DNA of 64,000 bases, from contig NZ_CP090960.1 of NCBI RefSeq assembly GCF_021611515.1, positions 1,550,001 through 1,614,000 of the forward strand. Direction: 5' to 3'. The first letter of the stretch is position 1, and each line of letters starts with the position of its first letter. The stretch comes from Mariluticola halotolerans (GTDB lineage: Bacteria > Pseudomonadota > Alphaproteobacteria > Rhizobiales > Devosiaceae). Positions 9,343 through 13,950 of this stretch are shown piece by piece. A program made the position numbers and the translations under genes. The notes under the pieces were generated by a model. That model searched no databases and had not been told where the DNA came from. It saw nothing but the letters and a program-made list of their open reading frames with translations.

Positions 9343-10416
9343 CTAACTGTTCTTGAAACGGTAGAACCGGTGCAAACCGATTGCTGTGACGCGTGTCATG
9401 CGCGGGGCCCATCGCGGCGAAACATAGGTCGCGTGATAGTGGGTCGCATTGGCGACTTCGGTCAGATAGATCGACCCGTTTGTCACCTTCTCGGCAATAT
9501 CTTCAGCCTGCGCCCATGACTTCTTGTCGTTGACGCGTTCCGGAATACCATCGCAGGCGAAGGAGAACTGGCAGGCATTGCGCCGCGACTGGTTCTGATA
9601 AACCACACCGCAAATTGTATTGGGATAGAGCTTGTGGTTGACGCGGTTCATGACCACCTGCGCCACGGCCACCTGACCGCGATAGGATTCGCCACGAGCT
9701 TCAAAATAGATCGCTGTCGCCAGACATGACAGCTGCTTGTCCGAAACCTTCCGGCTAACTGGTGTCTTGAATTCAGTCACCGGCGTGTTGGCGCGGGCAT
9801 AGGCCAGACGTTCCGGAATGCTGATTGGCAATGGCTGTCCCAGGTCATCGTCGGAACCGTCCACCGCTGCAATCGCGCTCAGCGCCGCAGAGGTCAATTT
9901 CGGATCGATAGCCGCGATTGACATGCGCGGCCCTTCTTCTTCAACAGGTTCGGCTGAAGCGAAGTCCGATTGCATGCCCGGCATCGGAATGAGGGCATCA
10001 TCGCGCAAAGCGGCAAGACGCAGGCGCGCTTCCTCAAAGCCGGTCGAAATTGTCAGGCCATCTTCGGCGGGACGTTTGCGCGCCGATTTTGCTGCCCGGT
10101 TGGGACCGGAGAAGGCATGGCCACCGAACAGACCAGCGACAGAACCGGTGATGATGAGATCTTCGCCGGTGCGCGTCAGGCTGGGGGCCGAAGACAAAGT
10201 CGCGATATTAACCTTGATTTCCGGGTCCGGACTTTTGGCCGCGCCGGTGGAGTTGATCAGCAAGATAGCTGCCAGCGCAATAGCGGTAACGCCCTTGCAA
10301 GCCGTGTGAACACCTCGCGGCGTTCCGGTTTTACGCTTGTATTTGCCCGCGTTTCCGGAAGGCGAACGGGTGTCCACTTCGCCGGGAGACGCCAGGGGCC
10401 GATGGGTTCGGGCCAT
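9343..10416 (-). CDS. Cell-wall hydrolase, SleB/CwlJ-type (Hydrolase_2)
   Basis: A 357-residue membrane-anchored or secreted protein. A basic N-terminal region (residues 1-40) precedes one hydrophobic segment, GVTAIALAAILLINSTGAA. A long low-complexity linker follows, and a C-terminal SleB-like catalytic domain runs from about residue 225 to 345. That domain begins LSCLATAIYFEARGESYRGQ, where the Glu of YFEARGE is the expected catalytic acid, and continues VAQVVMNRV and CQFSFACDG. SleB enzymes cleave peptidoglycan; in non-sporulating alphaproteobacteria they are thought to take part in wall remodelling. The ATG at 10416 has no clear Shine-Dalgarno sequence, so the exact start within the basic region is uncertain. 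Confidence 0.88.
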   Translation of the reverse strand: MARTHRPLASPGEVDTRSPSGNAGKYKRKTGTPRGVHTACKGVTAIALAAILLINSTGAAKSPDPEIKVNIATLSSAPSLTRTGEDLIITGSVAGLFGGHAFSGPNRAAKSARKRPAEDGLTISTGFEEARLRLAALRDDALIPMPGMQSDFASAEPVEEEGPRMSIAAIDPKLTSAALSAIAAVDGSDDDLGQPLPISIPERLAYARANTPVTEFKTPVSRKVSDKQLSCLATAIYFEARGESYRGQVAVAQVVMNRVNHKLYPNTICGVVYQNQSRRNACQFSFACDGIPERVNDKKSWAQAEDIAEKVTNGSIYLTEVANATHYHATYVSPRWAPRMTRVTAIGLHRFYRFKNS

Positions 10417-10592: not shown

Positions 10593-12890
10593 CTAGTTTT
10601 GCTGTTGGGCCTGCGCGAGGGCCAAACGCGCCACCGGAACCCGGTAGGGTGAGCAACTGATATAGTCGACACCAAGCCCGGCAAAGAAGCGGATGGACGC
10701 CGGGTCGCCCGCATGCTCCCCGCAGATACCAATCTTGAGATTGGGGTTGGCCGTACGGCCACGTTCGATGGCGATCTTGATGAGTTCACCCACACCGCGC
10801 TGATCGATGGTTGTAAACGGATCCTCGTCGTAAAGCCCCTTGCGCTTGTAGCTGGCCAGAAACGCGGGTGCGTCATCGCGGGAGATGCCATAGGTGGTCT
10901 GTGTCAGATCATTGGTGCCGAACGAGAAGAAATCGACCATTGGCGCAATGTCGCCGGCGCGCAACGCTGCGCGGGGCAGTTCGATCATGGTGCCGAAGCG
11001 ATAATCGACAGGTTGGGACATGGCCAGTTTGTCGCGCTTGGTAATGGCAGCCACTTCATTGCGCAGCCAGTTCACTTCGCGCGATGAGGTCACAAAGGGC
11101 ACCATGATTTCAAGATCAACAGGTTCACCCGTATCTCCGGCAGCCGCGCGCGCGCCGGCCAGCAAGGCATGTACCTGCATTTCCAGAACCTCAGGATAAG
11201 TGATCGCCAAACGGCAACCCCTGTGGCCCAGCATGGGATTGACCTCGGCCAGGCGCTCCAGCCGTTGCCGCAAAGCCCGGACCTGCAACCCGAGGGAGGA
11301 AGCGGTTTCCTCGATATCCTCATCACTGCGCGGCAGGAACTCGTGCAAGGGGGGATCGAACAAACGGACATTGACCGGCTTGCCCTGCATGATTTTGAAC
11401 AAGGCGGCATAATCACCGCTTTGGTAGTCGACGAGGCCTTTCAGGGCCGCCGCCCGGTCGTTTTCATTCTCTGACAGGATCAGGCGGCGCAGGGCCACCA
11501 TGCGTTCCGGGGTAAAAAACATATGCTCGGAACGTGCAAGACCAATACCCTCGGCGCCAAAACTGAGCGCGGTCTTGGCGGAATCAACGCTTTCCACATT
11601 GGTGCGCACGGCAATGGTCCGGCTGCCGTCGGACCAGTTGAGCAGGTTGCCAATCGCACCGCCGATATGCGGCTGAGACAATGGCAAAGCCCCGGCAAAT
11701 ATGGTGCCGTCGGTGCCATCAATGGTGATCTGTTGCCCGGCGCGTAATTCCGTATCGCCAATGCGGCAGGTCATTTCCACCGGATCGACCTGCATGGCGC
11801 GCACACCGGCAACGCAGGCCTTGCCCGATACACGGGCGATGATGGCGGCATGCGAGTTCTGGCCACCGCGTGCGGTGAGAATCCCGGTCGCAGCCTTCAT
11901 GCCATCAATATCAGCCGGGCCGGTCTCAACCGCCACCAGAATGCAGTGCTTGCCACGCGCCTTGACGCGGGAAGCATCGTCAGCGGTGAAGACAATCATG
12001 CCGCTGGCCGCTCCCGGCGACACGCCAATGCCGGTCGCCAGTGGTTGCCGGTCACCATCGGCGACAAGCCTTGGGTGCAGTAGTTGCGGCAAGCGTTCAG
12101 CCTCGACACGCATCACCGCCTCGCGTGGGGACCAGAAGCCGCGCTCGACCCGATCCACCGCAGCTTCAAGGTCGGCGGCAGCACTTGCGGCGCTGGGGCG
12201 GGCAGAAACCAGGGTGGCCTTGCCGTTATTGACCGCGACCAGACAGGTCATATGCGCGCCAGCGACCCGGTCGATGGCCAAGGCAATCTCGCTCACATTG
12301 GCGGGGAGCGCCGGCAGGCGTGCGCCTGCGACAGGCGCCGGGCCTATTGCACCCGTCTGCAGGTCGCGGCTGGAGAAATCGAGAAAGCTGCCTTCGGCCA
12401 TGGCCTGGACAATAATAATCTGCTGTTCGCGGCGCACCTGCTCGCGCACATTGGTCCAAACGGGCTCATCGGAGGCATAGGAGGCGAAAGCTTCATTGAT
12501 CGCACGCCCCAAAGGCCGCGCGGGATCCACCGAATCTTCCGGTCTGGTGGGCGAGACAATGCCCGTACGGGCGCGCATCAGGCCGGGGCTGTGATGCGGG
12601 GCAGATGTCCGCACGGCCAATAGCGGCATCGGCTCATCACGCCCCACCAGCTTGAAAAGTGTTGCAATCCAGGCGGTGCGCAATCGGGCATCGTCGGTTT
12701 TGCGCTCTTCCTGCAGGGCATTCCACGCTGCCCGGGTGAGACATATCGTTGGCACCACGGGCTGACCCGCCTCATTGACGGCAGAAACCCACCGGGCTTT
12801 GCCCACCAGAAGGTGCCGTTGCTCACCCGTCAGGCTGGCTTCGCCGAAAGCTGGTGCTATCGCAAACATTTGCTGGGCGGCCGTTGCCAT
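10593..12890 (-). CDS. Pyruvate phosphate dikinase homologue with reduced ATP-grasp region
   Basis: PPDK interconverts pyruvate and PEP through a phospho-His swivelling domain. Here the central domain is clear (TGILTARGGQNSHAAIIAR, His347) and the C-terminal PEP/pyruvate barrel is complete (RSEHMFF, GTMIELPRAALRAG, FFSFGTNDLTQTTYGISRDD, and catalytic Cys723 in CGEHAGDP). The N-terminal nucleotide-binding part is only about 230 residues instead of about 340. It lacks the opening GGKGANLAEM motif, and where PPDK has an acidic E-F-x-(I/V)-E strand ending in LQTR, this protein has TCLVAVNNGKATLVSAR. Total length is 765 against roughly 880. It may be a divergent PEP-utilising enzyme or regulator, not a standard dikinase. 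Start at 12890 follows AGGGGAT. Confidence 0.82.
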   Translation of the reverse strand: MATAAQQMFAIAPAFGEASLTGEQRHLLVGKARWVSAVNEAGQPVVPTICLTRAAWNALQEERKTDDARLRTAWIATLFKLVGRDEPMPLLAVRTSAPHHSPGLMRARTGIVSPTRPEDSVDPARPLGRAINEAFASYASDEPVWTNVREQVRREQQIIIVQAMAEGSFLDFSSRDLQTGAIGPAPVAGARLPALPANVSEIALAIDRVAGAHMTCLVAVNNGKATLVSARPSAASAAADLEAAVDRVERGFWSPREAVMRVEAERLPQLLHPRLVADGDRQPLATGIGVSPGAASGMIVFTADDASRVKARGKHCILVAVETGPADIDGMKAATGILTARGGQNSHAAIIARVSGKACVAGVRAMQVDPVEMTCRIGDTELRAGQQITIDGTDGTIFAGALPLSQPHIGGAIGNLLNWSDGSRTIAVRTNVESVDSAKTALSFGAEGIGLARSEHMFFTPERMVALRRLILSENENDRAAALKGLVDYQSGDYAALFKIMQGKPVNVRLFDPPLHEFLPRSDEDIEETASSLGLQVRALRQRLERLAEVNPMLGHRGCRLAITYPEVLEMQVHALLAGARAAAGDTGEPVDLEIMVPFVTSSREVNWLRNEVAAITKRDKLAMSQPVDYRFGTMIELPRAALRAGDIAPMVDFFSFGTNDLTQTTYGISRDDAPAFLASYKRKGLYDEDPFTTIDQRGVGELIKIAIERGRTANPNLKIGICGEHAGDPASIRFFAGLGVDYISCSPYRVPVARLALAQAQQQN

Positions 12891-12990
12891 GTCATCCCCT
12901 TGCCAAATCGCTACGGTCATCATGCATCATAGGGTAATGTGACCGCAACAAGACTTGACTTGCCGCCCCCCAGAAAGCATCTGAATAGAC

Positions 12991-13950
12991 ATGGACACAT
13001 TGCCTCAGCTTGAGATCATCCTTTGCGCCCCGCGCGGCTTTTGCGCCGGGGTCGACCGCGCCATCCAGATTGTCGAGCTTGCGCTCGAGAAATATGGTGC
13101 GCCCGTTTATGTGCGTCATGAAATCGTGCACAACAAATATGTGGTGGACGGGTTGAAGGCCAAGGGTGCGGTTTTTGTCGAGGAACTCGACGAAATACCC
13201 GATACCGAGGCCCCTGTTGTATTTTCGGCCCACGGTGTTCCCAAAAGCGTGCCGCTTGATGCCAGCGCCCGCAAAATGTTCTTTCTCGATGCTACCTGCC
13301 CGCTCGTCTCCAAAGTCCATGTGGAGGCGGAGCGGCATCACGCAGCGGGGCATGAAATCGTTCTGATCGGACACAAGGGGCATCCCGAAGTGGTGGGCAC
13401 GATGGGGCAATTGCCTCAAGGGGCTATCAGCCTTGTTGAAACCGTCGCCGATGCCGAAGCTTTTGAACCGCGCGACCCCGCCAATCTGGCCTTTGTCACC
13501 CAGACCACTTTGTCGGTAGATGACACGGCGGAAATCGTCGGCGTGTTGCAGCGGCGTTTCCCCCAGGTGACCGGACCGCACAAGGAAGACATCTGCTATG
13601 CAACCACCAACCGGCAAGAGGCCGTGAAGCAGGTGGCGCCCGAGGTTGATGCGATGATTGTGGTTGGGGCACCCAATTCTTCCAACTCAATGCGACTGGT
13701 GGAAGTGGCCGAGCGTTCCGGCTGCGCCAAATCGGCGCTGGTTCAGCGTGCCTCGGAGATCGACTGGTCCCTGTTCTCGGGCATCAAGCGCCTGGGCATT
13801 ACCGCCGGAGCGTCGGCACCTGAAGCGCTGGTCGATGAAATTATCGACGCCTTTGCGGCACACTATAAAATCTCTGTGTCGAGCCGGGTGACCGCGCGCG
13901 AGAACATCGCCTTCAACGTGCCAAAGGCATTGCGGGTCCCGGCAAGCTGA
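12991..13950 (+). CDS. ispH: 4-hydroxy-3-methylbut-2-enyl diphosphate reductase, IspH
   Basis: Last enzyme of the MEP isoprenoid pathway, an iron-sulfur reductase that makes IPP and DMAPP. The three cluster Cys are Cys18 in [13 protein letters not shown], one in [12 protein letters not shown] and one in [11 protein letters not shown]. Substrate-contacting motifs HGV ([10 protein letters not shown]), [11 protein letters not shown] and [10 protein letters not shown] are present. The 319-residue length is normal. It lies 73 bases upstream of rnhA. In many alphaproteobacteria thrB separates ispH and rnhA (family knowledge); here it does not. ispE and a polyprenyl synthase elsewhere in the window belong to the same pathway. 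Confidence 0.96.

Follow-up and report, generated by a model that had tools for sequence, protein, structure and literature searches.

The question raised by this locus is what a homologue of the dikinase PPDK (EC 2.7.9.1) can still do once its histidine and PEP/pyruvate domains have been kept and its ATP-binding part has been cut down and rebuilt. The gene lies in a 64,000-nucleotide stretch of the Mariluticola halotolerans genome (the window; the host genome comprises 3.45 Mb on two contigs), within an open reading frame of 776 aa, 10593..12923(-). An in-frame ATG at 12923, upstream of the start at 12890, would yield this longer product; the ATG at 12890 is the start conserved in relatives and agrees exactly with the coordinates 10593-12890 of the original prediction. 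The gene and its immediate neighbours are the following.

9343..10416, (-) strand: SleB-like cell-wall hydrolase, downstream; a locus marker common to ordinary PPDK loci of other families, and a locus neighbour by position alone
10593..12890, (-) strand: short PPDK homologue, coding sequence of 765 aa and a stop codon, beginning with the ATG at 12890, a start set by comparing relatives
12991..13950, (+) strand: ispH-like gene, divergent; conserved in Devosiaceae (58/67 loci), and a neighbour by position alone

Pfam recognizes the phosphohistidine domain and the PEP barrel in the 765-aa protein and finds no match to PPDK_N. The protein reaches 692.9 bits with the NCBIfam PPDK equivalog model, below the cut-off of 843.45, and 133.9 bits with the enzyme I model TIGR01417, below the cut-off of 341.7. 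The solved chains nearest to it are PPDKs, and the whole AlphaFold model superimposes on PPDK 2r82 with a Z of 46.0 (737 aligned, rmsd 4.4). It is the Devosiaceae form of PPDK, descended from an ordinary bacterial PPDK. The orthologous locus, the order of the three domains, the His and PEP-site residues and the fold are common to both, whereas the short protein is without NBD2, without the acidic ATP ligands and without the regulator gene, and falls below the equivalog cut-off.

We take the order of genes in the window to be dihydroorotase-like, ygfZ-like, HD-domain-like, SleB-like, short PPDK homologue and ispH. SleB is found near PPDK in 5/12 ordinary PPDK loci from other families, and a SleB homologue lies within the short flank in 23 of the 31 further loci that were read. 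In two genomes (G028 and G038) the PPDK locus also has the three other genes (dihydroorotase-like, ygfZ-like and HD-domain-like) close by, and in G028 these follow beyond SleB in the order of the window. Since SleB and other neighbours are thus common to ordinary PPDK loci, the short protein sits at the ancestral PPDK locus. A search for a conserved operon partner beside the gene found only these locus neighbours, with no partner gene standing out. A tree built from the His/PEP part places the Devosiaceae rows (21 of 85 used) together in a single clade (100/100), whose long stem measures 0.89 changes per column; the deep branching between lineages is poorly resolved. Three rows in which the cutting motif was not found (L003, L125 and L115) and two without a PEP domain (L148 and L149) were left out of this tree.

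The family to which these loci belong (f1) is Devosiaceae, within Hyphomicrobiales; loci fetched from its members are identical to loci of Arsenicitalea, Devosia and Maritalea (e.g., L008 equals L085 of Arsenicitalea aurantiaca). All 25 family genomes searched carry the short homologue, the gene being split over two contigs in two of them (G003 and G020) and truncated by a contig end in a third (G007). In a scan of 397 genomes of the order with a profile of the N-terminal (N) domain, 21/21 Devosiaceae match at E below 1e-90, and another 48 genomes give weak matches only (E above 4e-6), which mostly fall, over residues 13-146, in ordinary PPDKs of about 900 aa and thereby show common descent with these. 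The scan of named genomes used one peptide pattern, so that a lack of matches in the rest of those genomes says little; the order scan is the stronger evidence. Titles and abstract openings in the literature yielded no description of such a short PPDK form, including for Devosia.

The gene is not decaying. The N domain has a median dN/dS of 0.088 (highest value 0.195) over 80 Devosiaceae pairs, with 63 named loci compared, and is thus under purifying selection; the median of the His/PEP part is 0.048. Within Devosiaceae the N domain is the less conserved part, with a mean identity of 56 % versus 75 % for the His and PEP domains. Six ordinary PPDKs conserve both parts equally well (75 % for the N domain, 70 % for the rest). 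An assembly artefact or a pseudogene is ruled out by the presence of the gene in 25/25 family genomes together with the low dN/dS. Two loci, L071 and L089, each have one frameshift in the latter half of the coding sequence; one locus is from a MAG (Devosia ginsengisoli), the other from an isolate (Devosia aurantiaca H239), and the frameshifts may reflect sequencing errors or gene loss.

What has become of the nucleotide-binding domain can be read from four segments.

12186..12890, (-) strand: residues 1-235, reduced ATP-grasp domain without NBD2 and without the Glu271/Glu279 strand-loop, from alignments and model
12777..12806, (-) strand: VGKARWVSAV, the altered opening, with Gly30-Lys31 kept (Lys31 is Lys22 of C. 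symbiosum PPDK; 77/77)
12609..12611, (-) strand: Arg94 (Arg92 in C. symbiosum, Arg95 in Flaveria), kept in 77/77
12198..12248, (-) strand: residues 215-231, the former Mg-ATP strands, with Asp321 become Thr215, Glu323 become Leu217 and Gln335 become Ser229; Arg337 corresponds to Arg231

The AlphaFold model, built with 28 aligned sequences, has a pLDDT of 85.8 for the whole protein; the N domain modelled alone reaches 92.4. For the latter, the best PDB neighbour is the PPDK nucleotide domain 5jvl_A (Z 15.6, 209 aligned, rmsd 3.8), followed by rifampin phosphotransferase and D-Ala-D-Ala ligases (4c5a, Z 11.4, 154 aligned, rmsd 3.0). Because these are its closest folds, the domain is predicted still to adopt a reduced ATP-grasp fold. 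It comprises about 235 residues versus about 340 in PPDK, i.e., some 105 fewer, close to the shortfall of about 110 that had been proposed. The missing part consists of NBD2 (112-196 in PPDK, with subdomain borders as given in an excerpt of PMC5371819) and of the Glu271/Glu279 loop.

Residues were counted over 85 Devosiaceae rows, reduced to 77 distinct sequences by removal of duplicates; five of the 68 named loci had been dropped beforehand, two for their frameshift (L071 and L089) and three for running off a contig (L082, L100 and L102). Mapped onto C. symbiosum PPDK, the protein has no counterpart of the segment that carries Glu271 and Glu279, and its strand at Asp321 and Glu323 reads TCLVAVNNGKATLVSAR. 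The original prediction was right that this acidic Mg-ATP strand had been replaced, and the equivalent positions, 215 and 217, are acidic in 0/77 sequences; together with the presence of the homologue in 25/25 family genomes, this goes well beyond chance. No complete ATP-grasp site turned up: in the model the ATP-grasp fold is there, with uncharged residues at the metal-ligand positions. The opening, by comparison, had been described as lacking, and is in fact altered, VGKARWVSAV aligning with GGKGANLAEM. Lys31, Arg94, Gln162, Arg175 and Arg231 are invariant, as is Gly30 (77/77 each). Relative to ordinary PPDKs there are also new invariants, namely Trp34, Trp56, Trp74 and Asp207, and His213 is nearly so (75/77). 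For residues other than Arg95 and Glu324, the roles are those that we presume for PPDK or that PDB titles indicate (K22A, 1jde; R337A, 2dik; T453A, 1ggo). In Flaveria PPDK, as far as an excerpt of PMC5507339 goes, Glu324 (the counterpart of Glu323) and Arg95 are directly involved in ATP binding.

The other two domains present the opposite picture, as had been predicted for the phosphohistidine domain (His347) and the PEP/pyruvate barrel (Cys723), both residues lying where they were expected.

11691..12035, (-) strand: residues 286-400, swivelling phosphohistidine domain (PF00391), from Pfam
11850..11852, (-) strand: His347 (His455), the phosphorylated residue by homology; His in 77/77
10596..11660, (-) strand: residues 411-765, PEP/pyruvate barrel (PF02896), with Arg453, Arg509, Glu637, Asn660, Asp661 and Cys723

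The modelled swivel domain (residues 276-403) matches 2fm4 with a Z of 18.6 (128 aligned, rmsd 2.0). Arg561, Arg617, Glu745, Asn768, Asp769 and Cys831 of C. symbiosum PPDK are all six present in the 765-aa protein; over the 77 distinct Devosiaceae sequences, five of these PEP-site residues never vary, and 76 sequences have Cys at 723. Position 345 is equivalent to the regulatory Thr453, the residue on which the PPDK regulatory protein would act; the 765-aa protein has Asn there, and the family sequences have Thr (43), Ser (28) or Asn (6).

The PPDK regulatory protein PF03618 (DUF299) is absent from 25/25 family genomes versus present in 14/16 relatives from the order; in the order scan it is absent from 21/21 Devosiaceae and present in 327 of the 397 genomes overall. 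The two Devosiaceae sets overlap by seven, so that the regulator gene is missing in 39/39 distinct genomes. A review excerpt (PMC8100219) has DUF299/PF03618 present in all bacteria with PPDK. In the genome of M. halotolerans a Pfam search found no PPDK_N match anywhere, the same search giving matches in 13/14 control genomes, and searches with PPDK_N and with homologues revealed no second full-length PPDK, a point that the original prediction had put forward for checking. Other PPDK_N proteins, of 810-1048 aa, occur in 5/25 family genomes, two of them probably PEP synthases by their appearance, and in 20/25 there are none. Pyruvate kinase is encoded in 23/25 family genomes and ATP-type PEPCK in 24/25, one of the latter being a fragment below the family cut-off; since most family genomes have both, a dikinase may be dispensable.

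The loss is not confined to Devosiaceae. At residue level we read 31 homologues, from 30 chosen genomes and from G031; the genomes were chosen mostly for weak scores, and the fractions that follow are thus not estimates for the order. Among the homologues from genomes without the regulator, 25/27 differ from the standard at at least one of Glu279, Asp321, Glu323, Gln335 and Arg337, a few of them only conservatively (G106, G377 and G352); none of the 27 has a change at His455 or at any of the six PEP-site residues. Ordinary PPDKs with the regulator keep every checked ATP ligand (12/12). In one genus, f34-g132, four genomes (G303, G357, G330 and G369) have lost the whole N domain, with no trace of it found upstream in the locus; their open frames of 575-704 aa (L140, L142, L143 and L144) retain the His and PEP residues, and SleB adjoins. 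The tree, whose backbone is weak, spreads the altered forms over a number of distinct clades (f1, f34-g132, f22, f15, f43 and f51), some of them beside intact relatives (G038 and G178). Other lineages of Hyphomicrobiales thus appear to have lost or altered the ATP module separately, with the His and PEP halves left intact. The Mg-ATP acids have indeed gone, without exception in Devosiaceae and again in other lineages, and the sequences therefore give good support to the view that the 765-aa protein would not act as a standard ATP-dependent dikinase.

Across the order, the PPDK match is weak in 26, strong in 20 and lacking in 3 of the 49 non-Devosiaceae genomes without the regulator, versus 19, 304 and 4, respectively, of the 327 genomes that have it. 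This corresponds to an odds ratio of 20.8 between regulator absence and a weak match, among genomes that are related to each other and with many weak matches that are fragments. Absence of the regulator is nonetheless no strict indicator that the ATP site has gone: two genomes without the regulator (G256 and G178) have an intact site, and one with it (G183) has an altered site. A separate observation concerns L115 (G031, f8), a protein of 907 aa with a full-length, heavily altered N domain, in which Asp321 is Lys, Glu323 is Asn and Arg337 is Glu; it has no Pfam PPDK_N match, and its genome has no regulator.

We give barely better than even chances to the view that this PPDK descendant at the ancestral locus has turned into an ATP-independent, PEP-driven phosphohistidine transferase or into a PEP sensor. 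From the observed residues, fold, locus, gene content and selection we infer the following catalysis and acceptor. PEP and Mg2+ would bind to the intact barrel through Arg453, Arg509, Glu637, Asn660 and Asp661, and the phosphoryl group would pass from PEP to His347, Cys723 protonating the enolate to give pyruvate. The swivel domain would then bring the phosphate to the remodelled N domain, where the basic residues that would grip phosphate (Lys31, Arg94, Arg175 and Arg231) remain and the Mg-ATP acids are gone. Because the former remain and the latter do not, the acceptor would be something other than AMP and PPi, either a small molecule or a protein, or the phosphate on His347 may itself be the signal. 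One half reaction, PEP + His to pyruvate + phospho-His, thus seems still to be whole, the other end of the dikinase being missing or rebuilt.

The PEP-driven reading is favoured by the invariance of His347 and of the PEP site, the lack of any acid at 215 and 217, the selection on the N domain, the absence of the regulator, the shared locus with ordinary PPDK and the repeated losses. The retention of Lys31, Arg94 and Arg231 speaks against it, as some binding of a nucleotide or polyphosphate would be possible, and the metal ligands of ATP-grasp enzymes are known to differ. So do the single-copy HPr, the lack of a partner gene beside the locus and the exceptions to the link between regulator and ATP site. 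The alternative that survives best, and that we regard as unlikely, is a dikinase that still works: its ATP-grasp would have diverged so that other residues hold Mg-ATP for the usual interconversion of PEP and pyruvate. It accounts for the retained fold, for the five residues kept in 77/77 and for the purifying selection on the N domain; it does not sit well with the disappearance of all four acids (Asp321, Glu323, Glu271 and Glu279), kept in 12/12 ordinary PPDKs at the locus, nor with a protein that falls short of Pfam PPDK_N and of the NCBIfam PPDK equivalog cut-off, the loss of the regulator gene, and the presence of PEPCK and pyruvate kinase, with which a dikinase may be dispensable.

Rather improbable, in our view, is an N domain whose phosphoryl donor or acceptor has changed to a non-nucleotide phosphate, such as Pi giving PPi, polyphosphate or a phospho-metabolite. 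The basic residues kept are those that contact phosphate, and the residues lost are those on the adenine and metal side, a division that we presume in part from general knowledge of PPDK. The three new invariant Trp and the near-invariant His213 suggest, moreover, a pocket that was rebuilt and not abandoned. However, f34-g132 has dispensed with the whole domain, and at least there no N-domain substrate is needed. We see little chance that the protein is a non-enzymatic pseudo-dikinase, in which the binding of PEP or pyruvate or the scaffolding of a dimer matters and phosphotransfer does not: enzyme relatives have turned into regulators, e.g. VadK, which is still phosphorylated according to part of PMC13400623, but all 77 sequences keep His347 and the catalytic PEP-site residues (76 in the case of Cys723), and binding alone would not call for that. 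The protein might also be one half of a split dikinase, with an ATP-grasp partner phosphorylating it as HpeI does HpeH. Split dikinases have a precedent in an excerpt of PMC12167813, but this reading is very improbable here, as the short protein retains its own remodelled domain, its genome holds no PPDK_N protein, and the family genomes hold none (20/25) or ones of 810-1048 aa (the other five).

With this, the original prediction holds in the main as an observation, which is partly confirmed, and is partly supported as an interpretation: a changed phosphoryl donor is possible, PEP being the donor with an intact site; a role as a regulator would fit; a separate partner for phosphorylation, in the sense of HpeHI, is unsupported.

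Among known systems, PTS enzyme I is like the short protein, as read here, in forming a phosphohistidine from PEP with a PEP barrel and no working ATP site, and residues 285-765 match 2hwg with a Z of 29.3 (385 aligned, rmsd 3.0). It differs in that the short protein is below the enzyme I cut-off and has an ATP-grasp remnant, and in that a separate enzyme I-like homologue, probably EI-Ntr, is encoded in the genome (G000:C1:2689932), which rules out that the short PPDK homologue has replaced enzyme I. An expansion of HPr as a sign of a partner was not seen either, each of the 25 family genomes having one match, single-copy as in most relatives. For the PEP-driven reading, HpeH and VadK may serve as precedents by analogy. 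HpeH is the swivel-His half without an ATP-grasp and, in the excerpt of PMC12167813, transfers phosphate alone; the HpeH/HpeI dikinase differs in acting on aromatic substrates and in having an ATP-grasp partner (PMC12167813), of which no counterpart was found in the M. halotolerans genome. VadK (Rv1127c) of mycobacteria likewise descends from PPDK and has turned into a regulator after losing one of the two substrate ends, but it is the mirror image, since its ATP domain is the one retained and its PEP domain is gone. Full-length mycobacterial PPDKs without critical kinase motifs are mentioned in passing in that partial source (PMC13400623).

More tentatively, PPDK of Hyphomicrobiales may have turned several times independently into ATP-free PEP phosphotransferases resembling enzyme I, the ATP-grasp being rebuilt as a new acceptor site in Devosiaceae and deleted in f34-g132. 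If so, the repeated conversion would point to an unrecognised role in PEP-dependent phosphorelay or signalling already in the ancestral PPDK. Such genes are likely annotated as PPDK and may enter metabolic models as reversible PEP-pyruvate enzymes, and, as far as sequences can tell, the short PPDK would hardly carry out that reaction in the known way. A PEP/His half kept alone several times would have a role worth finding, perhaps in PEP sensing or in a phosphorelay separate from the classical PTS. A clean system for testing this is Devosia, with one gene copy, no ordinary PPDK, no regulator, and pyruvate kinase and PEPCK to cover the usual route.

Two further architectures were met at related loci. 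In f11, three homologues (L116, L148 and L149, from G034 and G081) keep the ATP and His domains and have no PEP barrel, with SleB adjoining and the regulator kept, a VadK-like architecture outside Actinobacteria. In L134 (G045, f22), which sits on a very long branch, the ATP ligands are intact and Glu745, Asn768 and Asp769 are replaced, the mirror image of the Devosiaceae case.
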